A DNA stretch of 64,000 bases from assembly GCF_001650905.1 (NCBI RefSeq), contig NZ_LXYG01000016.1, positions 1-64,000 of the forward strand, in the 5' to 3' direction. Positions 36,560-52,914 of this stretch are shown here, piece after piece. Source of the DNA: Balneola sp. EhC07. Lineage in GTDB: Bacteria > Bacteroidota > Rhodothermia > Balneolales > Balneolaceae. How positions within the stretch are numbered: position 1 is the stretch's first letter; every line of letters begins with the position of its first letter. Below the pieces are notes generated by a model. That model saw nothing but the letters and a program-made list of their open reading frames with translations. It ran no database searches and was not told the origin of the DNA. The position numbers were made by a program, and so were the translations under genes.

Positions 36560-39358
36560 ATGAACAAAGAGGATATGAAATCCAATAATATACTAACACT
36601 GTTAGTGATAGGAATTCTTTCTATTTCACTATCAAATTTTACTCAAGCTCAGGCTGTGATAGGTCCTGATCTTCAAAACACACTAAATACAGCCACGGAG
36701 TCTGTAGAGGTAATTATCACCTTTTGGGGCAATGAAGCTCCCGATGCCGGCGAATTGTCTATACTAAATGACGCCGGTATTTCAATAGGTTATTCTTTTC
36801 AAAGTTTACCTATGGCAGGCGCTATTGTTACTCCGGCACAAATTACTGATCTGGTTTCCAGGCAGGAAATAAGATCGATCTATTTAAATAAAGAGCTTTC
36901 TTATTTCAACAATGATTCAAGAGCTATTACAGGTGTAGACAAAGTTCAATCTAACGCTGAGTTTACATCTCAAAACGGCGGCTTCCCGATTTCCGGAAAA
37001 GGAATTGGAGTTGTTGTGAATGACAGCGGGGTCGATGGAACTCATCCAGATCTAGAATATGGAACCGCACTGGTTCAAAATGTGCTGGGATCAACAAACT
37101 TACATGCATACAGCGATCTAGCTCCTGTAACTTATGTTGAAGGTGTGCCCAATACAGATACCAACTCAGGTCATGGAACACACGTGGCCGGAACAGTTGG
37201 CGGACGCGGTGTAGCTTCAAATGGTAAACATCAGGGAGTAGCGCCCGGTGCCGATCTGATCGGTTATGGATCAGGTGGTGCTCTTTTTGTACTTGATGGA
37301 ATTGGCGGCTTTGATTACGCCATAACACATCAGTTTGAATATGGAATTCGTGTGATAACTAATTCCTGGGGTTCTTCAGGGAACTTTGATCCGAACCACC
37401 CAATTAATCTGGCTAGTAAATTGGCTTATGATCGTAATATCGTAACGCTTTTTGCTGCCGGAAATGAAGGACCTGGTGAAGATACTCACAATCCATACGC
37501 TAAAGCACCATGGGTAATTTCTGTTGGAGCCGGAACTAAAAGTGGTGAACTTGCTGATTTTTCATCAAGAGGAACAAAAGGAAGAAGCGGAACTTTTGAA
37601 CTGGATGGCGAAACGTTCACTTTTGTAGATGAACCAAGTCTTGTTGCTCCCGGAGTAGATATAATCTCAACGAGAACAGTAGCTCCAATTCCTTTATTAG
37701 GCGCAGAAGCTGATGCAGAATTAATAGAGCCGTCAAATCTGGCTTTTTATACTACTTCAAGTGGTACATCAATGGCGACACCTCATGTAGCAGGAATTGT
37801 TGTATTACTTCTGGAAGTAGATCCGACTTTAAACCCGGATGAAGTTAAAAGTATTCTTCAAAGCACAGCTACCAACATGCAAAGCAGAGAAAGCTGGGAA
37901 GTTGGTTCCGGATATGTGAATGCATTTGCAGCCGTTCAAAAAACGTATGACAGAGATGCTGAATTCGGAAGCAGCATTAAAGCTAACAGAGAATTTAATG
38001 GTGAAGCTCAGTTTGATGTTCAGACGAATCCATTTTCAGTTAATTATGATCCAAGTGGAGTTACAAACGAAACACATAGTTTCAACTTAACAGGAAATGA
38101 AAGCGTGCTTTCTGTTCGTGCAAGTTTAGAAGGAATTGCCGGCCAAACCGGAAATCCTGTTAATGTTATCGTTATTGACCCGAATGGTGTTGAATACAGC
38201 TCAGGAATTCCTGTTCTGTTCACGCTTACCTATCTCAGAGAAGTTCAGGTTACAAACCCGATTGCAGGTGAATGGGGTGTGGAGATCCGCGGCCTGAGAG
38301 GCGACGAAGCTAACCCAACAAATGGTATCGGCATAACTGAAACAGTTTCGGGTACTATTAAAACGCAAACAGCAAGTGGTTACACCGGTTTAAATGATAT
38401 AAACGGTCATCCTGCTGAAACGGCTATTAAACTGGCGATCTCAGAACGACTTGCTGATAGCTTTAACGATAAAAGATATAAGCCAAACAGAAATCTGAAG
38501 CGAATTGAGTTGGCAGAATATCTGGTTATGGGACAAGAGATCCGTCAGTCATTACCACTGAATGGAAATACGTTCAGCGATGTAGACGGAGCCTTTGAAA
38601 CACTGGTAGCTCAATCGGTTGTAGCTCAGGGAGCTCCATTAAAAGACACCGCTCAATTTGACGACGGTGTTATGCTTGTCGGTTCAGGTTCAGGCTTTAA
38701 TCCCAACGGGAATGTAAACAGAGCAGAACTTGCCTATTCTCTGGTTCAGAGTTTAGGACTTCAATGGGCTGCCGAAGAAATTGGCGAAGAAGATGTTACT
38801 GTTGTTTATAACGGCGAGAGAATTGCTGTTGAAGACTCAGATGAGATACCTTCAGCATTCAAACCATATGTGCAAATTGCAATTGATCTGAACATCCTGA
38901 ATGTGACGTTCAGCCTTGAGCAAGGTCCGTATGATCTGGAACCTGTAGTTACAGCCGAGTTCAATCCCGGAGAAAACGTAAGCAGAGCTGATTTTGCCGT
39001 TGCAGCAACAAGAAGTTCTACTGCAAGTTTCGAAAGCGCAGAAACACAGGCTAAATCGCTGCCACAAGAAGAGGAAATACTTACAGAGCAGGTTACTGAA
39101 TTCAAGTTGGATCAAAACTATCCGAATCCATTTAACCCGAGCACGACTATTTCTTACTCTGTGGCTGAGAATGCAGACGTAACTTTAAACGTGTTTAACA
39201 TGTTAGGTAAGAAGGTTGCTACACTGGTAAACTCCAGACAAAGCGAAGGTTCTTATACCGTAACATGGGATGCTTCCAGTATGGCGAGTGGTATCTATAT
39301 TTACCGCTTGCAGGCAGGGAACAAAGTGTTCACAAGAAAAATGAACCTGATTAAATAA
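36560..39358 (+). CDS. T9SS-exported subtilisin-like protease with SLH-like modules
   Basis: The 932-residue S8 peptidase has its catalytic triad at Asp155 (VVVNDSGVDGTHPD), His205 (NSGHGTHVAGTVGG) and Ser404 (SGTSMATPHVAG), with the oxyanion Asn in FAAGNEGPGE. An I9-like propeptide (about 35-125) precedes the domain. Past residue about 610 come SLH-like repeats (FNDKRYKPNRNLKRIELAEY, GFNPNGNVNRAELAYSLV, EFNPGENVSRADFAVAA). The end is a T9SS sorting domain (NYPNPFNPSTTISYS). ATG 36560 is used; ATG 36575 in the same frame gives a more typical signal peptide and follows AGAGG at a short distance. Possibly a surface protease acting on peptides; substrate unknown. Confidence 0.9.
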   Translation: MNKEDMKSNNILTLLVIGILSISLSNFTQAQAVIGPDLQNTLNTATESVEVIITFWGNEAPDAGELSILNDAGISIGYSFQSLPMAGAIVTPAQITDLVSRQEIRSIYLNKELSYFNNDSRAITGVDKVQSNAEFTSQNGGFPISGKGIGVVVNDSGVDGTHPDLEYGTALVQNVLGSTNLHAYSDLAPVTYVEGVPNTDTNSGHGTHVAGTVGGRGVASNGKHQGVAPGADLIGYGSGGALFVLDGIGGFDYAITHQFEYGIRVITNSWGSSGNFDPNHPINLASKLAYDRNIVTLFAAGNEGPGEDTHNPYAKAPWVISVGAGTKSGELADFSSRGTKGRSGTFELDGETFTFVDEPSLVAPGVDIISTRTVAPIPLLGAEADAELIEPSNLAFYTTSSGTSMATPHVAGIVVLLLEVDPTLNPDEVKSILQSTATNMQSRESWEVGSGYVNAFAAVQKTYDRDAEFGSSIKANREFNGEAQFDVQTNPFSVNYDPSGVTNETHSFNLTGNESVLSVRASLEGIAGQTGNPVNVIVIDPNGVEYSSGIPVLFTLTYLREVQVTNPIAGEWGVEIRGLRGDEANPTNGIGITETVSGTIKTQTASGYTGLNDINGHPAETAIKLAISERLADSFNDKRYKPNRNLKRIELAEYLVMGQEIRQSLPLNGNTFSDVDGAFETLVAQSVVAQGAPLKDTAQFDDGVMLVGSGSGFNPNGNVNRAELAYSLVQSLGLQWAAEEIGEEDVTVVYNGERIAVEDSDEIPSAFKPYVQIAIDLNILNVTFSLEQGPYDLEPVVTAEFNPGENVSRADFAVAATRSSTASFESAETQAKSLPQEEEILTEQVTEFKLDQNYPNPFNPSTTISYSVAENADVTLNVFNMLGKKVATLVNSRQSEGSYTVTWDASSMASGIYIYRLQAGNKVFTRKMNLIK

Positions 39359-39383: not shown

Positions 39384-39412
39384 CCGGGTGTTTAATTACA
39401 TCCGGTTTTTTT
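39384..39412 (+). terminator. Terminator behind the subtilisin gene
   Basis: Arms CCGGGTGT and ACATCCGG (one G-T pair) with a 6-base loop, then seven T. It overlaps the end of the convergent gene at 39411 by two bases. Confidence 0.8.
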
Positions 39413-40403
39413 ATGCAATTAAATTTAATTCCTGAAGATCTTCTACGGGCTCGTCGAAACTGCAACTCCCGAACGAGGTGACAGAAAGATCGCGCAACAT
39501 GTGCAGCTCTTCAAAAGAAACAGATTGTCCTTTCCATGAAAACTCAGATTCATCAAAATTGAAATTTGAAGCATTTTCGTCATTCAGAATTTCCAGCAAT
39601 TCGTCTTCAGAAAGCTTTTTGGAATAACTTAACAAAGAAGCCCCGAACACATTCAGAAAGCCATGCATTTTGGTTTGTACAGAATCATTGTAGTGACGAA
39701 CAGGATGGTGAAGTCCGGCCGTGAATTTTAGAGGAACGGTATTTTCCCGGGAAAAAGTAATGGCTTCAGCCAGATAATCCGTGGGAGGAAATTGAAAAGC
39801 TTCCACTCCACCGCAACGGATCTTAAAACCGGAAAAACAGTAATTTTCCTTTTCATTCGATTCAAGCCACTCATTGTGTTTATGAATCCCCTGAACAAGT
39901 TCTTTGGTGTATTTCATATCGAAATCAAATCCCGGAACTTCAAAAAAGATCTGATAAGGTAATGTTTCAGATTTTGCCATGGATTGAACTGCGTACTCAA
40001 TAGCAGATTGAAGTTCGGATGAACTTTCTTCCTTCAGAAAAGCCAGAGGCACCTTAATTTCTAAAGTGGATATGTGGATTTTTTTAGCTGTGGATTCAAG
40101 AGAATCCTTAATGACTTCTACTGTGTTGTCGATTACTTTTTTGAAGCTGTCAAGATCATCAGAAGCAGCACCAACCAGCGTTATTTTAAAGGGAGAAGGA
40201 GATTCAGGCTCCGCATCAATGAGTGTAATCAGTTCACGCAGAAGTCCGGTTCCGACAACAAATTTTGAAAGCATCCACGCTTCCTTCTGCTCAATATGAG
40301 ATAGATATTTTCTGAACGCCTCTTCCAAAGGCAGTTCAGAAGGCGGATATAAGCCCGCATAATCAATAATATCGGATAAGAAGGGACGTAAACTAGTCTT
40401 CAA
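39411..40403 (-). CDS. Conserved protein of unknown function
   Basis: The 330-residue soluble protein has no signal peptide. Recognisable stretches: DYAGLYPPSELPLEEAFRKY at the N terminus, then WMLSKFVVG, YQIFFEVPG, FKIRCGGVEAFQFPPTDYLA and PLKFTAGLHHPVRHYN. The alternation of strands and helices with glycine-ended strands (KFTAGLHHP) suggests a TIM-barrel enzyme. I recall similar hypothetical proteins in Bacteroidota but no function. It is convergent with the protease gene and lies about 3 kb from fumarylacetoacetase, which is not enough to link them. Confidence 0.6.
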   Translation of the reverse strand: MKTSLRPFLSDIIDYAGLYPPSELPLEEAFRKYLSHIEQKEAWMLSKFVVGTGLLRELITLIDAEPESPSPFKITLVGAASDDLDSFKKVIDNTVEVIKDSLESTAKKIHISTLEIKVPLAFLKEESSSELQSAIEYAVQSMAKSETLPYQIFFEVPGFDFDMKYTKELVQGIHKHNEWLESNEKENYCFSGFKIRCGGVEAFQFPPTDYLAEAITFSRENTVPLKFTAGLHHPVRHYNDSVQTKMHGFLNVFGASLLSYSKKLSEDELLEILNDENASNFNFDESEFSWKGQSVSFEELHMLRDLSVTSFGSCSFDEPVEDLQELNLIA

Positions 40404-40564: not shown

Positions 40565-40849
40565 ATGAACAAATCAGAAACGATAAAAGCACTCAGTGAA
40601 CGACTTGAGTTAACTCAAACTCAAACAGAAGAGTTATATAACTCGCTAGTGAGCATTTTTACAGAGCACCTGTCAAACAATAACGGCTTCAGCATTCCCG
40701 ATTTCGGTAGCTTCAGCTCTGAGATCAGAGAAGAATACAAGTCCTATAATCCGCACTATAAGCAAATGATGCTACTTCCAAAAAAGAAAGTAGTTCGGTT
40801 TTCTCAAAGCTCAGCTTTAAAAGATGAATTCAACGAGGTGGAGCTATGA
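40565..40849 (+). CDS. HU-family DNA-binding protein (small, divergent)
   Basis: The 94-residue protein has the HU/IHF pattern: two N-terminal helices (KSETIKALSERLELTQTQTE), then the strand FSIPDFGSFSSEIREEYKSY and a basic end PKKKVVRFSQSSALKDEF. The beta-arm tip has HYKQMMLLPKKK in place of the usual NP motif, so DNA bending may differ. It overlaps the next gene, which also starts with an HU domain, by 4 bases (ATGA). The two are therefore co-translated and could form a heterodimer. That pairing is inference. Confidence 0.85.
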   Translation: MNKSETIKALSERLELTQTQTEELYNSLVSIFTEHLSNNNGFSIPDFGSFSSEIREEYKSYNPHYKQMMLLPKKKVVRFSQSSALKDEFNEVEL

Positions 40850-41985
40850 GTAAAAAAGTTACATTTTCGGAATTGATAAAAGCGTTTGCTGAATCAAATG
40901 GTATTACTCAGCAGAAAGCAGAGGAGATGATCCGTGGAGTTTTTGATCTGGTAATTGATGATCTGGAAAAAAATGGAAAAGCATCTATAACCAGCTTCGG
41001 TAGTTTCGAATTAAAAGACGTTGCTGAAAGAACGGGTATAAATCCGCAGACAAAAGAAGAGATCGTAATTCCGGCACATAAGAAAGTATCATTCAAGCCT
41101 TTTAAAGCACTTGAACAAACTGTAAACGCGCCTTTTGCCGGTTTAGAGCCTACCTTGCTTGGAGAAAAGTCCGGAACTGAAACAGAAGAAACAACAGCAA
41201 AGGCAGAGAAAGAGCAAGAACCTGAAGTATTTGAAGATCCGTTCGAAGAAGTTATAAAGCCTGCTGATGAACAAGCTGATGAAGCAGAAACACCGGATTC
41301 AGTTGAGGAAGAAGCTGAAGAAGAACAAGAAGAAAGTGAAGTTGAAGCTCCCCCTGTTTTTAAAGCACCCGAAAAGGAAAAAGGAAATGAGGTCAGTTGG
41401 GTTTTTATAGTTCTGGTATTGTTGATAGCCGGAACGGGAATTTGGTTTTTCTTTCTGAGAGATTCCGATCCGGGGAATATGGACAATGTAGTTGCAGGAA
41501 ATCAGACTCCGGCTCAACAACAAGCTGAGCAGGTTGAAAAAGTGCCACCTGCTGAAACGCCAGTAAAAGAAGAAAAAACTTCTGAAGCTTCAGCGGCATC
41601 ATCAGAAACAAAGAATAATGTCAGTGCAGAACCGGCTGTGCAAAAAGAAAAGCCAGCCCCAAAAGAAATGACCGCTTATATCATCGAAAAAGATGAATGG
41701 ATGTGGGATATTTCAAGAGAAGTGTACGGCGCACCGTATTTATGGCCACTGATTTTTGAAGCAAATAAAACCGTAAATGACGATCCTAATTTAGTGGAGC
41801 CGGCTAATACCTTGATGATTCCTTCTTTGGAAGGAAGTTCGGCTAATCTGACAAAAGAAGATTATGCAAAACTGGCCAAAGCAACGAAGTTAGTTTCTGA
41901 AGCATATGCTAAATCAGGAAATTCGGAACGTGCGAAGGAATATTCAAGATTCGCTGCTAAGTATGAAAGGCATAGTAAAAACTAA
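40846..41985 (+). CDS. HU domain - membrane helix - LysM fusion protein
   Basis: The 379-residue protein has a canonical HU domain at 1-90 (VTFSELIKAFAESNGITQQK, SITSFGSFELKDVAERTGIN, PAHKKVSFKPFKALE). A long acidic Glu-rich linker (about 105-180) follows. One membrane helix sits at about 183-203 (VSWVFIVLVLLIAGTGIWFF) and is followed by Arg. Then a Pro/Glu/Ala linker leads to a LysM-like domain at about 277-326 (YIIEKDEWMWDISREVYG, YLWPLIFEANK, NTLMIP). With DNA-binding and wall-binding ends on opposite sides of one helix, it could tether the nucleoid to the peptidoglycan. It is co-translated with a smaller HU protein, and its end overlaps the convergent hemW by 4 bases. Confidence 0.85.
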   Translation: MSKKVTFSELIKAFAESNGITQQKAEEMIRGVFDLVIDDLEKNGKASITSFGSFELKDVAERTGINPQTKEEIVIPAHKKVSFKPFKALEQTVNAPFAGLEPTLLGEKSGTETEETTAKAEKEQEPEVFEDPFEEVIKPADEQADEAETPDSVEEEAEEEQEESEVEAPPVFKAPEKEKGNEVSWVFIVLVLLIAGTGIWFFFLRDSDPGNMDNVVAGNQTPAQQQAEQVEKVPPAETPVKEEKTSEASAASSETKNNVSAEPAVQKEKPAPKEMTAYIIEKDEWMWDISREVYGAPYLWPLIFEANKTVNDDPNLVEPANTLMIPSLEGSSANLTKEDYAKLAKATKLVSEAYAKSGNSERAKEYSRFAAKYERHSKN

Positions 41986-43736: not shown

Positions 43737-43867
43737 GAGTTTTGTTCATTATAAATGAGTAAGAAATAATTACTGCCGGCACGGTTCAAAGATAAAGCAA
43801 AAAACACACAGAAGGTTTATCAAATAAGAAATGGTTTTAAAAAATTGAATTGGAAATTGATTCATAA

Positions 43868-43885
43868 AATGAAAGCGCTTACATT
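43868..43885. promoter_or_regulatory. LacI/CcpA-type operator before the amylase gene
   Basis: AATGAAAGCGCTTACATT matches the perfect palindrome at 52981-52998 in 17 of 18 positions and resembles the cre consensus TGWAANCGNTNWCA. It overlaps an in-frame ATG at 43869, which argues that translation starts later, at 43908. Confidence 0.65.
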
Positions 43886-43907
43886 CTTGACAATCCGATA
43901 CGTTGCA

Positions 43908-46900
43908 ATGGCAAAAAATCTCTTAATAAACAGAATAAAGCACATCTTTGAATTAAAGAGTCTGCTCAGAATTACAGTAAAGTGTAGTCTCTCCCCCTCA
44001 ATTTTGTTGGCGATCTTATTCTTTTCAACAGGTGTTATTAACGCACAGGTCAGTTCATCTCCTGCATTTCCTTCCAGATCTAACAGCATTACCATTGTCT
44101 TTGATGCCACCAAAGGAAACCAGGCTTTGCTCGGGCATTCCGGAGATGTTTACATACATACTGGATTGATCACAGATCAAAGTAATCCTGATAATCCACC
44201 GGATCCTGTGGGAAATCCCGGAGACTGGAAATTCATCAAAACAGCTTTTGGTCAGAATACTTCTGCAACCAAAATGACACGCCTTGAGACGAATCTTTAT
44301 TCGATAACGATCTCGGATGTGGACGCTTACTACGGATCTGCATCAGCGAACGAGATCTTAAAACTAGCAATGATCTTCAGGAGTGGGGACAGTGGTAAAA
44401 TTGCTAAAACCGAAAACGGCGAGGACTTTTTTATAGAACTGTTTTCTGACGGGGTCTACGTTCGATTCAACGAGCCTGGTGAAGAGTCTTCTTTTTTGGA
44501 AAACGGGGAAATGCTGGATATTCAGGTTTTGGGTGCGGCTCTGGGTTCAACTCTTCAATCCTTGGAGTTATTTGAGGACGGCGTCAAGCTTGCTGATACA
44601 GCCAGCGATACCTTGGATTACGTGCTAACAGCAAATTCATCCGGCAGGAAAACTCTTAAGGCTGTTGCCACCAACACGGAAGGAGAAAAAGACAGCGCTT
44701 CAGTTTATTATCTGGTTCCTGATGCTATCAATGAAAGCCCCAGACCAAACGGAGTAACACAGGGAATTAAATATTATGAGTCGGATCCGACCAAAGTAAC
44801 ACTGTCGTTACTGGCTCCTTTCAAAGATCATGTTTATGTGATCGGTGAGTTTAACGACTGGGAGGTTTTACCGGATTTTCAGATGAACCGGGAAACGGTA
44901 AGCTCGAACGAAGTTTATTGGTGGATCGATATAACCGGATTGAACCCGGGTCAGCAATACGCTTTTCAGTATTTGGTGGATAATGAGATCAGAATTGCAG
45001 ACCCATATGCCGAAGAAGTTCTTCATCCTGATGACAGTTTTATATCGGAGTCAACATATCCGAACCTGAAATCCTATCCGTACGGAAAAACGACGGAATA
45101 TGTATCCATCATTGAAACGGATAAAGAAGAATTCAACTGGACGGATCAGGACTGGGAACGACCGGCAAAGAAAAACTTAGTTATCTATGAATTGCTGGTT
45201 CGGGATTTTTCAGATAAACATAACTACCAAACGGTTATAGATTCTCTGGACTATTTACAGAGATTGGGAATAAATGCCATCGAGCTAATGCCCGTAAACG
45301 AGTTTGAAGGAAATAACAGCTGGGGTTATAATCCGTCTTTTTATTTTGCAGCCGACAGATATTATGGACCTGCCGAAGACCTGAAAAGGCTCATAAATGA
45401 AAGTCACAACAGAGGAATAGCCGTAATTGTTGACGCGGTTTACAATCATTCCTTCGGTCAGTCGCCAATGGTTCGCCTGTATAATGAAGGAGATTACGGC
45501 AAGCCTACTTCAGAAAATATTTGGTTCAATATCGATGCCCGACACCCTTTTAATGTGGGCTACGATTTTGATCACACAAGTCAGTTTACCCAACAATTTA
45601 TTGACAGTGTAAACAGATTTTGGGTGAAGGAATTTCATGTGGATGGATTCAGATATGATCTGAGCAAAGGATTCACTCAAAACTTCACATCTGATGTGGG
45701 AGCCTGGAATCAATACGATCAAGGCAGAGTAGATCTGTTAAACAGAATGAAAAGTCGCATTCACGAAGTATATCCGGAGACGTACCTGATCCTTGAGCAT
45801 CTCGGAAATAATGACGAAGAGACCGTGCTTGCAAACAGCGGATTCATGCTTTGGGGCATCATGCACGAACAGTATAAAGATGCAGCTCTGGGCTATAATG
45901 GTGACCTCACCAATGTCTCTTATCAAAACAGAGGCTGGAATGATCCGCATCTGGTTGGATATATGGAAAGTCATGATGAAGAACGGATCATGCATGAAAT
46001 TGAGAATTTCGGTAATGCTTTTTCGGGTTATGACACCAAAGAAAAAACAACGGCTTTAAACAGAATTAAGATCGCAAATGCATTTTTGCTCAGCGTTCCG
46101 GGACCTAAAATGTTCTGGCAATTCGGAGAATACGGCTACGATATCAGCATCAATCAGAACGGAAGAACAGGTGAAAAACCAATCCTTTGGAGTTATTTAA
46201 ATGATGCAGATCGTTATCGTTTGTATCAAACGGTATCAGAACTGTCGAAACTGAAAACAACGCACCCATCTTTCGCTACAACCGATTATTCGCTGGATAT
46301 GGGCGGAAAGCAAAAAAGAATTCTGCTTCGCTCAGCAACCGACGTTCAGATACTCGGAAATTTTGATGTCGTCAGCGCAGATGTATTTCCGTACGGACAT
46401 AATTCCGGATCCGGAAAATGGTGGTATGAATATTTCAGCGGAGATTCTTTGTTGATCAATGAGTCTTCAGTTCCGGCTATAAATATGGCTCCGGGAGAAT
46501 TCAGGATCTATTCTACTGCAAAGCTTGGAAATCCACCTCCGGGAATTCTGAATGAAAAAGCAGGACAAATCAGTCTGGATTCAGAATTAGTTGAATTCGA
46601 GGAATTTTCGGGTGGAGACGTAAATCCATCTTTTCAGAAAACACTTACTCTTACAAACACAGGAAGTGCCGAACTTACGATCACAGACATTTCTAATTTC
46701 AGTTCTGAATTTTTGGTTAGTCCGTTAAGTGCGTCCGTTGGCGTGGGCGGAACTCTTGATCTGGAGATAACTTTTGAGCCGTCGGGTTTAGGTAATTTTG
46801 AAGATACATTTACGATCGAAACCACCGGAATCGGATCGGTAAGTTTTCAGGTGAAAGGAAGTTATACCGATGCCTTACCCGGAAAACCTGTGATCACAAA

Positions 46901-48881
46901 TCCAGAGAACGAACAGCAGAACGTTCCGCTGAATATAGTTTTTGAATGGCAGCCGGTGAGTAACGCAGACACTTATGAAATTGAAATTCGAAATGCAGAT
47001 ACGGAAGAGATCAACGAAACAGAATCCGGACTAGCAGACAATCGTTTTGTGGGCTCAAATCTAAATTTGGAAACAGAATACAAATGGAGAGTCAGAGCAG
47101 AAAACAGTTTTGGTACCGGTGATTGGACTTCATTCTCAACTTTTACAACGCTACCGGAAGTTCCCGATGCAATACTCCACGGTTTACCTGAAGACAGCGC
47201 CACAGATGTTTCTACTAGTCCGGTGCTAACATGGAACGAAAACTCTGCAGCTACTACCTATGAAATTCATTTGGCCACCAATCCGGAATTCACGGAAGAT
47301 CTGAAAGTAAAAGATGAAGTTGAAAGTTTATCAGTACAATTTGTTGGACTATCAGCCAATACAGAATATTACTGGAGAGTTCGTGGAAGCAATGTTTCCG
47401 GAGATGGAGTTTGGTCAGCAACACGAAGCTTTACAACCAGCTCTGTAGGAACTCCTGATCTGGTTACACCGATCAATAACTCTTCTGATGTGGCTTTAGA
47501 TGCAGAACTTAAATGGAATACAGCAGCCAATGCTGAGAGTTATACAATTCAGATATCGAAAGAATCCGATTTTAAAATAAGAGCGGAACAAACAGCTGTT
47601 ACAGATACTGTTTTCGCACCGGATTTTCTGGAAAGAAATACAACCTACTACTGGCGTGTAAGATCCAAAAGTTCGGAATTTGAAAGTGCTTGGTCAGCTA
47701 CGGGTATTTTCTCCACTCCTTTTGATGCACCAACTAAACCGTCATTAATTTCTCCGGTCAATAATGAAGTAGATATAGCGGATGTTGTCTTGTTCGACTG
47801 GAGCGAAACCGAACGCACTTTCTGGTATCAAATTCAGATATCTGAAAGCAACGGGTTTTCCTCACCGACGGTTGATTCCACGAATATTCCTGAAAATGAA
47901 CTGGAGCTCAGCGATACACTGAACAGAAACACTACTTATTTTTGGAGAGTCAGAGCCATCAATTCAAGCGACTCCAGTGCGTGGTCTGATACTCTTAGTT
48001 TTTCCACACTACCTGAAATTCCAAACGCTCCGATCCAAGTTAGTCCTGCAGATAGCGTGACTGATCTAAGCACAGATCTGACATTTAAATGGAGAGAAGC
48101 AGAGATTTCATCCGATTACAGATTTCAACTTTCTGTAACCAAGAATTTTTATGAGAAAACAGATACGCTGATCAAATCTGACACTTCTTTTGCGGTATCG
48201 GATCTGAAGTTCAATCAGACTTATTACTGGCGAGTACAAACGATCAACAAAAGCGGCGTTTCAAAATGGTCGAAAGCACGATTGTTTAAAACGAAGGTCG
48301 ACCTCCCGGGAATTCCCGAATTAATAGCTCCTCAGGCTCACATTTCTGTTGATCCCTTTGTAAACAGATTTGTATGGAGTAAAGCGGATCGAGCTTCTAC
48401 TTACCGTTTTCAATTGAGTAATACTTCCGGTTTTGAAAGTGTTTTAAAAGACTCTTCCGGCTTTGTTATTCAAACGCTTGAAAACGTACCACTTCCGGAA
48501 AACACAACCTTATTCTGGCGAGTGCAGGCAAATAATAAAGCGGGTGCCGGTGCATGGAGCGCTGTTCAGGAAATAAAAACTTCCATCGCCACAAGCATAG
48601 AATCCGAAGCGCTGCCAAAGAATTATGCGATGGATCAGAACTATCCGAACCCGTTCAATCCATCCACAACTATTAAGTATGCATTGCCAAAAGCGGAAAG
48701 AGTTTCTATCACCGTATTTAATATGATAGGCCAAAAAGTGGCGGTTCTGGTTGATAAAAGACAGGAAGCAGGATTCCACTCAATTACTTTTAACGCATCA
48801 AATCTGGCAAGCGGAATGTATATCTACAGAATTAAGGCGGGAAGCTTTAGTCAGATCAAAAAACTAACCCTCATCAAATAA
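43908..48881 (+). CDS. T9SS-exported GH13 alpha-amylase-family enzyme with FN3 repeats
   Basis: 1657 residues from ATG 43908; the frame opens at 43845, but the operator at 43868 and the signal peptide (PSILLAILFFSTGVINAQ) favour the later start. An N-terminal starch-binding-like domain and an E-set/CBM48 part (HVYVIGEFNDWEVLPDF) precede the GH13 barrel. The barrel shows GINAIELMPVNEFEG, AVIVDAVYNHSFG, the nucleophile region FHVDGFRYDLSKG, the acid/base in YLILEHLGNN and the last Asp in GYMESHDEERI. An ASH-like Ig domain and about six FN3-like repeats (each with YYWRVR) follow, then the T9SS tag NYPNPFNPSTTIKYA. It would cleave alpha-glucans at the cell surface. Next gene after 7 bases. Confidence 0.92.
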   Translation: MAKNLLINRIKHIFELKSLLRITVKCSLSPSILLAILFFSTGVINAQVSSSPAFPSRSNSITIVFDATKGNQALLGHSGDVYIHTGLITDQSNPDNPPDPVGNPGDWKFIKTAFGQNTSATKMTRLETNLYSITISDVDAYYGSASANEILKLAMIFRSGDSGKIAKTENGEDFFIELFSDGVYVRFNEPGEESSFLENGEMLDIQVLGAALGSTLQSLELFEDGVKLADTASDTLDYVLTANSSGRKTLKAVATNTEGEKDSASVYYLVPDAINESPRPNGVTQGIKYYESDPTKVTLSLLAPFKDHVYVIGEFNDWEVLPDFQMNRETVSSNEVYWWIDITGLNPGQQYAFQYLVDNEIRIADPYAEEVLHPDDSFISESTYPNLKSYPYGKTTEYVSIIETDKEEFNWTDQDWERPAKKNLVIYELLVRDFSDKHNYQTVIDSLDYLQRLGINAIELMPVNEFEGNNSWGYNPSFYFAADRYYGPAEDLKRLINESHNRGIAVIVDAVYNHSFGQSPMVRLYNEGDYGKPTSENIWFNIDARHPFNVGYDFDHTSQFTQQFIDSVNRFWVKEFHVDGFRYDLSKGFTQNFTSDVGAWNQYDQGRVDLLNRMKSRIHEVYPETYLILEHLGNNDEETVLANSGFMLWGIMHEQYKDAALGYNGDLTNVSYQNRGWNDPHLVGYMESHDEERIMHEIENFGNAFSGYDTKEKTTALNRIKIANAFLLSVPGPKMFWQFGEYGYDISINQNGRTGEKPILWSYLNDADRYRLYQTVSELSKLKTTHPSFATTDYSLDMGGKQKRILLRSATDVQILGNFDVVSADVFPYGHNSGSGKWWYEYFSGDSLLINESSVPAINMAPGEFRIYSTAKLGNPPPGILNEKAGQISLDSELVEFEEFSGGDVNPSFQKTLTLTNTGSAELTITDISNFSSEFLVSPLSASVGVGGTLDLEITFEPSGLGNFEDTFTIETTGIGSVSFQVKGSYTDALPGKPVITNPENEQQNVPLNIVFEWQPVSNADTYEIEIRNADTEEINETESGLADNRFVGSNLNLETEYKWRVRAENSFGTGDWTSFSTFTTLPEVPDAILHGLPEDSATDVSTSPVLTWNENSAATTYEIHLATNPEFTEDLKVKDEVESLSVQFVGLSANTEYYWRVRGSNVSGDGVWSATRSFTTSSVGTPDLVTPINNSSDVALDAELKWNTAANAESYTIQISKESDFKIRAEQTAVTDTVFAPDFLERNTTYYWRVRSKSSEFESAWSATGIFSTPFDAPTKPSLISPVNNEVDIADVVLFDWSETERTFWYQIQISESNGFSSPTVDSTNIPENELELSDTLNRNTTYFWRVRAINSSDSSAWSDTLSFSTLPEIPNAPIQVSPADSVTDLSTDLTFKWREAEISSDYRFQLSVTKNFYEKTDTLIKSDTSFAVSDLKFNQTYYWRVQTINKSGVSKWSKARLFKTKVDLPGIPELIAPQAHISVDPFVNRFVWSKADRASTYRFQLSNTSGFESVLKDSSGFVIQTLENVPLPENTTLFWRVQANNKAGAGAWSAVQEIKTSIATSIESEALPKNYAMDQNYPNPFNPSTTIKYALPKAERVSITVFNMIGQKVAVLVDKRQEAGFHSITFNASNLASGMYIYRIKAGSFSQIKKLTLIK

Positions 48882-48888
48882 CAAGATC

Positions 48889-51800
48889 ATGAAAAGAATT
48901 ACCGGCTTATTTTTTCTTGTATGTCTGATGGGATCAGTATCACTGAACGCCCAGATCTTTCAACCCGAAGGGGTTAATATTCCCGGCGCCTGGAATGGAT
49001 TTGCGAACTCGAATGATTCAACGGCAATGGGCAACTTCAGGATGAATTACCGATCATTTGCGGGCGGACAATATATCACTACGCTGGAAGTAAAGTCCGC
49101 AGATGGAGACGCTACAGCCGGTGTGTTTAATATGCTTTTTACCAGCGGGCCCGATGGCAATAACTTTGCCAATAAATGGGCAGATGCCACGCTAACAATT
49201 GACGGTTTCTCAGATCTCAGTTACAACACGGGCGCGGATAACTCCATTACATTAATTAATGACAACTACTACACTTTAATTTTTGATGACAACGGATACG
49301 ATAATTCCTCAGCGGCTGTTTTAAAAACATCAGCTGCCCCGGTAAGTATAGTTTCTGTAACGGGCACACCAACCGGGAATGTGGTCGCAAATGATCCGGT
49401 AACGATTGCTGTAGAACTGGACAAAGCAAGATCAGCTGAAGAAAAAGTCTATATCCGATATTCCACAGATAACTTTACAACCAGCAGTGCACTTGAAGTT
49501 ACCAACTTCACAGGTGCAACCGGTTCCGTTGATATTCCGGGTCAGCCAAAAAATACAGTGGTAGAATTCTATGTGCTTACAACTACACTGGATGAAGCGA
49601 ACTGGAACTCAAATATCGATCTCGCAACTCTGGCTTTTGATGTAAACGGAGGCTCTAATTACAGATATTTTTACGAAGCTAATATTCTGCCGGCAAACGG
49701 AGCAACCGCTGTTGCCAAAACTCCTGATTTCAGTTGGTTTTCTACGGATGGAGCTGCCGGTTATGACTTTCAGCTTTCTGAAACCAATGACTTTTCTACC
49801 ACGGTTGAAGACCAGTCCGGATTAACCGATACGACCTTTTCGGTTACAGATCCGCTGGATATAAACACCAAATACTATTGGAGATTTAAAACTTCAGCGG
49901 CAACCGAATGGTCCAATGTGTATTCATTCACAACCGAAACAGAGATCACCTTCGCTAATCTTCAGTTTCCATCTGAAGTTGTTATTGACAGCGGAGAAAC
50001 ATTTCAAGTCTATGGACAGCTGACCGTTCCCGGAGTTACAAGTTTGTCCGGAGAAAACGCGGATATATCAGCGTGGGTTGCTGTAAATGAAAACAATACC
50101 GATCCATCCACTTGGGATGAAGTGAGTTGGAAGACGACTGCTTTTTTTGAGGATAAAACGTCGACCGACGAATACAGCGCTTCACTTGGATCAGAATTAG
50201 AAATTAAAAAGTACTATTTCGCATTCCGGTACAGATATAAAGATCAGGATTTTGTGTATGGCGGAGTGAATGGTTTTTGGGATGCAGGCACAAGTCCTTC
50301 GGGAGAATTGGATGTGTTGGAAATTCCTCAACTTGTTTCTCCTTTAAACAACGCTACCGAAATTTCATTGGAAGCATTGCTGGATTGGTCAGCTTCGGAT
50401 TCCAGAATTCAGGGATTTCATATCCAATTAGCAAATGAAGCTACATTCAGCTCGCCAATTATTGACGATTCGGGATTGTCATCCGCGGCCACAGAGTACA
50501 CGATAGCTTCCGGAGTTCTTGAAAATGAAACCAAATATTTCTGGAAAGTCCGTGCTGAATATGACACCACTTCAAGCGGTTGGTCAGAAACGCTGGCATT
50601 TACAACTTTGGCAGGTATTCCGGATAAGGTCACGGCGTTTCTTCCTGAGGATGATTCTGAAAACGTTTCTTTAGCTCCGGTCTTTTCATGGAATCAGGAA
50701 AGTCGCTCCGATTCTTATTCAATTCAGATCTCAAAGGATAATAATTTCACTGTTGTTCAAACCAACACTTCTGTTGCGGATACTCAGTTTGTATATAGTG
50801 ATCAGGATTCGCTTTCTGCAGGAACTCGTTATTACTGGAGAGTTCGAGGAGTGAATTCAAGTGGTTCCGGCGCTTGGTCAGATACGCTTACTTTTAAAAC
50901 AGAACTAAGAGTGCCGATGCTGATCTCTCCGGCGGATGAAGCTGAAGATGTTGTTACAGATCCCGAACTGGTTTGGAGATCGATCGATGGCGCGTTGAAT
51001 TACGATCTCCAGCTTTCTAAACTGTCTTCGTTCAGCACAACGGTTTCTGATTCATCCGCATTATCTGATACTACTTTTCAGGCAGCGCTTCTGGAAAATT
51101 CTACTTCCTACTACTGGAGAGTAAGAGCAAACTATGCCGAGGACGTTGGGGATTGGTCGACAGCTCAATTGTTTACTACAAAAGCTCCGGCTCCTTTAGC
51201 GCCTGAATTGCTGTCACCTGAAAACGGAAAAGAGAATCTGGGTTTATCTCCAACATTACAATGGGCAAGTGTAGCTGATGCGGATTCGTATGATCTGCAA
51301 TTATCAACAGAATCGGATTTCACTTCAGGAATAGTAACAGACAGTTCAGGAATTACCACAACAACTTTACAAACAGACACGCTTGCCAGAAATACCGATT
51401 ACTTCTGGAGAATACGGGCGGTGAATAACACTACCGGCAACAGCGACTGGTCAGAAACCCGATCATTTTCAATCATTCCCGAAATTCCCGGCGCATTCGT
51501 CTTAATGTCTCCCGTTGATCAGCAGGAAAACACAAGTCTCCCGGTTACATTTGTATGGTCTTCCGCTTCCGGAGCTGCTGATTATAGAGTTCAGTTTTCA
51601 ACAGACGATAACTTTACTTTTGTTTCTGATACAGCCACAACTGATACTGCTCTAACGGTTAATTCGCTGTCAGCGACAACAACTTACTTTTGGAGGGTGA
51701 AGGCATCGAACGCGGGAGGAAGCACCGAATGGTCTTCACCGTTTGAGTTTAAAACAGGAATTTCCGGTTCTGAAGGACCGGTTCTCATCAGCCCGCTGAA

Positions 51801-52914
51801 TAATGCTGTAAACCTGAGATCACCCATAGAATTTGCGTGGGACAGCGTAGCATTGGCGGAATCTTATACCATTCAGCTTTCCGAAACTTCCGCATTCGAG
51901 TCATTAATTACAGACAGCTCAGGAATTACGGATACTTCTGTGTTAGTCACCTCTGTGCAAAAAAGTAAACGATACTTCTGGCGTGTTCAGGCAATGTCAT
52001 CATCAGGAGCAAGCAGTTGGTCGCAGGTGTATTCTTTTGAAACGGAAAAAGAAATTCCGGCTTCACCACAATTGTTGCTTCCGGAAGATCAATCTGCAAC
52101 AGACCCGCAGGAAATTGAATTTGTATGGACAGAAGTTGCTGATGCAGAGAGCTACGATATCAGAATTTCGAAAACGGAAAATTTCAAAGTTTCCATCGAC
52201 AGTACGATCACCAATGATACTTCATTAACCTTACAGGCTTTTAGTTTTGATACCGATTATTACTGGCAGATTAGATCGGCGAATGCGTCAGGTAAAAGTT
52301 CATGGAGCGCGGTATTTACTTTTAAAACCAATGTTCCATTACCGGGGGTTCCTGAACTATTGAGTCCGCTGGAAAATGATGCCGTGAACGACCCTGTTAT
52401 TTTTGGATGGAACAAAGCCGACTACGCCGATTCCTACCAACTTCAAATTTCAGAAATGCAGAGTTTCGAAAGTACGGTGATCGATACTTCGGATATTTTC
52501 GGAACTACGGCTGAGATAGATAACCTAGCCGAAAACACGGAATATTTTTGGAGAGTACGATCTGAAAATTCAGCCGGGAATAGCGAATGGTCGGAAGTTG
52601 CCGATTTTATGACTCAGATCTTTACTTCTTTTGAAGAGGGAAGCGTGCCGTCAGAATTCAAGCTACATCAAAATTATCCGAATCCTTTTAATCCGGGCAC
52701 AACGATCCGGTACGATCTTAAAACGGCGGGACAGGTAAGCATTCGTGTTTATGACATTACCGGAAAAGAAGTAATGACTTTGCTGAACGGTAAAAGATCG
52801 GCAGGCAGCCACACTGTAAACTTCAATGCATCAGGTTTGGCAAGCGGAGTGTATATTTTGAGAATGACCACTCCCGGTTTTGTTCAGATCCGTAAAATGA
52901 CGCTCATAAAGTAA
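48889..52914 (+). CDS. T9SS-exported surface protein with nine FN3-like repeats
   Basis: The 1341-residue protein has a signal peptide (LFFLVCLMGSVSLNAQ) and a unique N-terminal region of about 270 residues (NIPGAWNGFANSNDSTAMGN, YTLIFDDNGYDN). That region resembles the N-terminal binding part of the neighbouring amylase. Nine FN3-like modules follow, most built as SP.N...(d/n)..FEW...A.SY.IQ(I/L)S ... YYWRVRA. It ends in NYPNPFNPGTTIRYD, a T9SS tag. No catalytic motif is seen. It lies 7 bases behind the amylase gene and is probably co-transcribed. A glucan-binding or adhesive partner of the amylase is the likely role, by inference. Confidence 0.8.
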   Translation: MKRITGLFFLVCLMGSVSLNAQIFQPEGVNIPGAWNGFANSNDSTAMGNFRMNYRSFAGGQYITTLEVKSADGDATAGVFNMLFTSGPDGNNFANKWADATLTIDGFSDLSYNTGADNSITLINDNYYTLIFDDNGYDNSSAAVLKTSAAPVSIVSVTGTPTGNVVANDPVTIAVELDKARSAEEKVYIRYSTDNFTTSSALEVTNFTGATGSVDIPGQPKNTVVEFYVLTTTLDEANWNSNIDLATLAFDVNGGSNYRYFYEANILPANGATAVAKTPDFSWFSTDGAAGYDFQLSETNDFSTTVEDQSGLTDTTFSVTDPLDINTKYYWRFKTSAATEWSNVYSFTTETEITFANLQFPSEVVIDSGETFQVYGQLTVPGVTSLSGENADISAWVAVNENNTDPSTWDEVSWKTTAFFEDKTSTDEYSASLGSELEIKKYYFAFRYRYKDQDFVYGGVNGFWDAGTSPSGELDVLEIPQLVSPLNNATEISLEALLDWSASDSRIQGFHIQLANEATFSSPIIDDSGLSSAATEYTIASGVLENETKYFWKVRAEYDTTSSGWSETLAFTTLAGIPDKVTAFLPEDDSENVSLAPVFSWNQESRSDSYSIQISKDNNFTVVQTNTSVADTQFVYSDQDSLSAGTRYYWRVRGVNSSGSGAWSDTLTFKTELRVPMLISPADEAEDVVTDPELVWRSIDGALNYDLQLSKLSSFSTTVSDSSALSDTTFQAALLENSTSYYWRVRANYAEDVGDWSTAQLFTTKAPAPLAPELLSPENGKENLGLSPTLQWASVADADSYDLQLSTESDFTSGIVTDSSGITTTTLQTDTLARNTDYFWRIRAVNNTTGNSDWSETRSFSIIPEIPGAFVLMSPVDQQENTSLPVTFVWSSASGAADYRVQFSTDDNFTFVSDTATTDTALTVNSLSATTTYFWRVKASNAGGSTEWSSPFEFKTGISGSEGPVLISPLNNAVNLRSPIEFAWDSVALAESYTIQLSETSAFESLITDSSGITDTSVLVTSVQKSKRYFWRVQAMSSSGASSWSQVYSFETEKEIPASPQLLLPEDQSATDPQEIEFVWTEVADAESYDIRISKTENFKVSIDSTITNDTSLTLQAFSFDTDYYWQIRSANASGKSSWSAVFTFKTNVPLPGVPELLSPLENDAVNDPVIFGWNKADYADSYQLQISEMQSFESTVIDTSDIFGTTAEIDNLAENTEYFWRVRSENSAGNSEWSEVADFMTQIFTSFEEGSVPSEFKLHQNYPNPFNPGTTIRYDLKTAGQVSIRVYDITGKEVMTLLNGKRSAGSHTVNFNASGLASGVYILRMTTPGFVQIRKMTLIK

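Follow-up and report, generated by a model that had tools for sequence, protein, structure and literature searches.

A two-gene HU module with a membrane-spanning HU-LysM subunit in Bacteroidota, a candidate nucleoid-to-peptidoglycan tether

In Balneola sp. EhC07, a member of the Balneolaceae, we found two overlapping genes that encode a small HU protein and a second HU protein, the latter continuing through an acidic linker and a single membrane helix into a C-terminal LysM domain. The reading that we favor, at a probability of about 0.5, is that the two products form a heterodimeric tether between nucleoid and peptidoglycan, with DNA binding, wall binding, heterodimerization and a role in anchoring or segregation all being predicted properties. 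Sequence comparison together with structural models supports the identities of the domains, the single helix and its charge asymmetry, the strict pairing of the genes, their common origin and the retention of DNA-binding arms; conservation, pairing and arm retention make the tether more plausible.

Architecture of the gene pair

The window analyzed here is a stretch of 64,000 nucleotides, and the pair lies in it head to tail on the same strand (contig 16 of the 3.6-Mb genome). The features, in window coordinates, are as follows.

40565..40849, + strand: small divergent HU protein, 94 aa, proposed heterodimer partner (Pfam Bac_DNA_binding, PF00216, 1.3e-20)
40846..40849, + strand: ATGA stop/start overlap, 4 bases (sequence)
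40846..41985, + strand: HU-TM-LysM fusion protein, 379 aa
40864..41127, + strand: HU domain of the fusion, residues 7-94, with intact beta-arm (PF00216, 6.5e-26)
41122..41157, + strand: conserved post-HU motif (VNAPFAGLEPTL), common to the fusion and a SPOR paralogue
41158..41388, + strand: acidic, disordered cytoplasmic linker (AlphaFold, mostly pLDDT <50)
41401..41457, + strand: single transmembrane helix, residues 186-204 (mean Kyte-Doolittle 2.73)
41458..41661, + strand: disordered linker, predicted periplasmic, ~68 aa (pLDDT <50, residues 209-272)
41665..41826, + strand: LysM domain, residues 274-327 (ortholog profile, NCBIfam, predicted fold)
41854..41979, + strand: C-terminal helical hairpin, TPR-like, residues 337-378 (AlphaFold pLDDT 93-97)

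The order within the fusion is thus HU, acidic linker, membrane helix, disordered linker, LysM and helical hairpin. An earlier note, made from the letters of this DNA, had described an HU domain, an acidic linker, one membrane helix and a LysM-like C-terminus here, and the architecture is confirmed: all four are present within 40846-41985. Chance can be excluded, since two distant lineages conserve this layout at 20-40% identity. The overlap of the two genes, which in orthologs usually amounts to 4, 8 or 11 bases, suggests translational coupling. It should be noted that the hairpin gave only weak TPR matches.

The membrane helix, which AlphaFold extends over residues 182-206, is the sole hydrophobic helix of the window fusion, and it follows a region (residues 96-185) with 36% D/E and 8% K/R. 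Exactly one hydrophobic segment was present in all 29 Balneolaceae orthologs. Among 28 orthologs of a second order, called Bacteroidales-like throughout (the order of genome G238, assigned from gene content), 26 had one clear segment, one had a weaker single segment, and one had a second, weak segment. In 28/29 Balneolaceae orthologs, lysine and arginine were more abundant N-terminal to the helix than beyond it; in the Bacteroidales-like set, the N-side count exceeded that of the C-side in 20 and was lower in 6, so that the charge asymmetry is weaker there than in Balneolaceae. The N-side excess predicts that HU lies inside and LysM outside. The orientation proposed earlier, with the DNA-binding end in the cytoplasm, therefore stands as a prediction from the helix count and the charge asymmetry.

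The identity of the LysM domain had been set as a point on which the proposal could fail. The Pfam model PF01476 does not match the window protein at its gathering score, and it matches 9 of the 29 ortholog tails weakly (best 6.8e-4). Nevertheless, a profile built from the 29 orthologs matches the solved LysM of Kbp at 2.5e-10, along with those of a phage LysM tail protein (2.3e-8), TsaP (1.1e-5) and, weakly, SafA (0.0028). NCBIfam PRK11198 (Kbp/YgaU LysM) matches residues 264-327 of the window fusion at 2e-8, and a single Bacteroidales-like version also matches the Kbp LysM (1.8e-5). The predicted fold is beta-alpha-alpha-beta with a mean pLDDT of 91, and Foldseek ranks LysM proteins highest for this region, at probabilities of 0.95-1.00 although the E-values are weak (0.03 and up). 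The Pfam miss reflects the sensitivity of the model, and the domain would be expected to bind peptidoglycan. It should be noted that glycan is not always the ligand of LysM folds, Kbp being a potassium-binding protein. Under an alternative that we regard as quite improbable, the domain would bind an ion or a protein instead, leaving a DNA-to-membrane anchor only; the potassium protein is indeed the closest solved relative, and the Pfam miss fits as well. However, the ortholog profile also reaches the TsaP and SafA domains, the LysM-type prolines P314 and P326 are invariant in the 29 orthologs, and a parallel protein, considered next, carries another peptidoglycan-binding domain, SPOR, at the same position.

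HU domains, arm retention and the SPOR paralogue

Both HU domains are well supported: PF00216 scores 73.9 bits for the small HU and 90.9 bits for the fusion, against a gathering score of 22.4, and matches all 29 orthologs. A beta-arm with a tip proline is present in both window proteins, and R62, G64, N66, P67, T69, I75 and P76 of the fused arm are invariant in the 29 Balneolaceae orthologs. The tip proline occurs in 29/29 partner and 29/29 fused HUs of this family. In the Bacteroidales-like loci, the partner retains it in all 30, whereas the fused HU lacks it in 25 of 29. The partner proline is thus kept in 59/59 loci, even where the fused HU has lost its own, so that every pair has at least one kinking arm; this pattern fits a functional dimer that always carries one such arm or two.

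The same genome encodes a second two-gene system (G000:C17:244060-246025; L052:4060-6026), in which a small HU is followed by an HU-acidic linker-TM-SPOR protein. It lies between ftsK and exbB/exbD/tonB-like genes and is present in all 48 sampled Balneolaceae genomes. Its HU can be aligned with that of the LysM protein; the alignment extends into the post-HU motif and is interrupted by a gap at the arm. The two systems share the two-gene organization with the small HU first, the acidic linker and the membrane helix; they differ in that the paralogue has SPOR in place of LysM, a different neighborhood (ftsK/exbB) and arm-less HUs, the arms of its Balneolaceae versions being deleted or shortened in both HUs (28/28 and 23/23). 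This difference in arm retention is the best argument from sequence for retained DNA binding by the LysM module, presumably through the HU pair as a dimer, a capacity that the SPOR system may lack.

Two points count against DNA binding by the module. In the Balneolaceae proteins, the HU domain has almost no net charge (mean 0.2), less than a typical, strongly basic HU; the two other HUs of the window's genome are likewise weakly charged. In addition, HU folds are reused elsewhere for protein contacts, as proposed for CCDC81. If the pair were such a protein-protein module, the whole would be an envelope scaffold, with the LysM or the hairpin recruiting wall enzymes. The near-neutral charge, the arm-less paralogue and the loss of the proline from most Bacteroidales-like fused HUs are consistent with such a scaffold; conversely, the invariant arm residues of Balneolaceae and a partner proline that is never lost argue for DNA, and we consider the scaffold unlikely.

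Distribution, neighborhood and common origin

Protein and profile searches recovered the fusion from 36 of the 41 Balneolaceae genomes sampled, but from none of the few that represent other families of the order and from none sampled elsewhere in the class. It reappears in the Bacteroidales-like order, where at least 34 of 247 genomes (17 family codes) carry it. Confinement to Balneolaceae was accordingly dropped as a description, since the genomes G230 and G238 carry the fusion. Where the fused gene is present in the sampled genomes, it occurs once per genome. At one locus (L161, G470:C1:701500-712500), a fused ORF downstream of rimO and a small HU reaches 721 aa, roughly double the usual length.

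At each of the 59 loci fetched (29 Balneolaceae, 30 Bacteroidales-like), a small HU gene lies immediately upstream in the same orientation. The distances among fused HUs and among partner HUs are correlated (r = 0.85, permutation maximum 0.16), which reflects co-inheritance and is partly expected from shared species history. The earlier suggestion that the small protein could be the dimer partner gains support from this invariable adjacency and parallel evolution.

The surrounding genes vary between clades, and the pair itself is the conserved unit. In many Balneolaceae the neighbors are hemW and a hexapeptide transferase; many Bacteroidales-like loci have rimO-ftsY and a moxR-bat operon. In G238 (L054:4469-5707), a transposase-like gene stands between the fused gene and moxR, and none does so in the related G230. 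A conserved functional neighborhood beyond the pair was sought across lineages and none was found. This result bears on another alternative, namely that the fusion is a membrane-bound one-component regulator, comparable to ToxR/CadC-type proteins but with an HU head: LysM would sense the state of the wall, as strain or turnover products, and the HU pair would alter transcription or the local architecture of DNA. Transmembrane regulators have the same topology, the HU pair might act at defined sites, and the single fused gene per sampled genome would suit such a role. Nevertheless, no candidate target gene conserved across lineages adjoins the pair, and HU has little sequence-specific readout, so that we find a regulator rather improbable.

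Other genes around the window pair are recorded here as observations. Upstream lie a 330-aa protein with no Pfam match (39411-40403), whose cluster (c13) neighbors the pair at several loci in Balneolaceae, and a subtilase (36560-39358) that combines S-layer homology repeats with a type IX secretion tail. Positions 43845-52914 hold two very large consecutive genes, both with a type IX sorting tail at the end (the first recognized by eye), the second being rich in fibronectin-III-like repeats.

Ancestry was addressed with a tree of 107 HU domains, from which the housekeeping rows L201 and L004 (long branch) were left out; the latter is a very divergent HU of 106 aa (G000:C1:189650-189919). The fused HUs form one clade (support 100/99) and the partner HUs a separate single clade (100/100), with housekeeping HU/IHF falling apart from both. 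One clade for each partner implies that the module arose once, and the tree thus points to a single origin within Bacteroidota; independent fusions in two lineages are not favored.

Known systems and the proposed tether

The claim that such a link is not a standard bacterial component held in part. For the LysM variant, no description was found among the papers searched. The claim does not hold for the kind of layout, since HU-TM-SPOR is a described Bacteroidota family with a representative in this very genome. In flavobacteria-like genomes, HU-HU-TM-SPOR proteins (PF18174/PF18175) adjoin dprA, and the HU-TM-SPOR/HU-CCDC81_bac family to which these Pfam entries belong is reportedly that of Burroughs et al. 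2017, Cell Cycle. These proteins resemble the LysM module in having two HU units, one membrane helix, a C-terminal peptidoglycan-binding domain and the post-HU motif, and differ in having SPOR, both HUs in one chain, and arms that by eye are reduced or absent. Burroughs et al. are said to have predicted a role in chromosome partition for the SPOR family. PF18175 scores 14.1 bits on the window protein, below the cut-off of 35; PF18174 does not match it and was not found in the sampled Balneolaceae. The window fusion has LysM where SPOR would be expected, and the SPOR domains of the genome lie elsewhere. The pair is therefore best described as a variant within the HU-TM-wall-domain kind that consists of two genes, bears arms and uses LysM, with HU-TM-SPOR as the known precedent.

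Two further comparisons are informative. The polar landmark proteins HubP/FimV combine a LysM-like domain in the periplasm with a single membrane segment and a cytoplasmic region that is acidic (PMC12918733), and HubP is a polar anchor in Vibrio chromosome partition (PMC9140986). The fusion shares these three elements in the opposite order: HubP/FimV have an N-terminal periplasmic LysM, no HU and a C-terminal cytoplasmic FimV TPR end, whereas here HU is N-terminal and LysM C-terminal. HubP/FimV contact the chromosome via partition proteins; the fusion would use its own DNA-binding domain. Housekeeping HU/IHF have the same fold and arm motif, but are soluble proteins of about 90 aa.

In the proposed tether, the two gene products would assemble into an HU heterodimer, held in the inner membrane by its larger subunit. 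The co-translated pair would grip and bend chromosomal DNA with little sequence specificity, through complete beta-arms on one subunit or on both. The flexible acidic linker would separate the HU head from the membrane, which the single helix would span N-in/C-out, and the flexible periplasmic linker would present LysM to hold peptidoglycan. DNA would thereby be fixed, or dragged, relative to the wall. HU-TM-SPOR would be an arm-less sister arrangement, with denuded septal wall as its expected target.

Attachment and positioning of the nucleoid with respect to the envelope pose a long-standing question, and the known links run mostly via intermediaries such as ParA/HubP, FtsK and transertion. 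Here, a single chain is predicted to contact both DNA and wall, as part of an obligate pair whose conservation extends across a large group, Bacteroidales-like bacteria among them. Pfam detects only the HU part of the fusion, and such genes are thus probably labeled merely “HU family DNA-binding protein”. It is possible, at what we judge to be somewhat less than even odds, that many Bacteroidota possess, as a single inherited module, a direct covalent chain from DNA to peptidoglycan, built on a membrane-bound HU heterodimer and working beside an arm-less, septal SPOR sister system.
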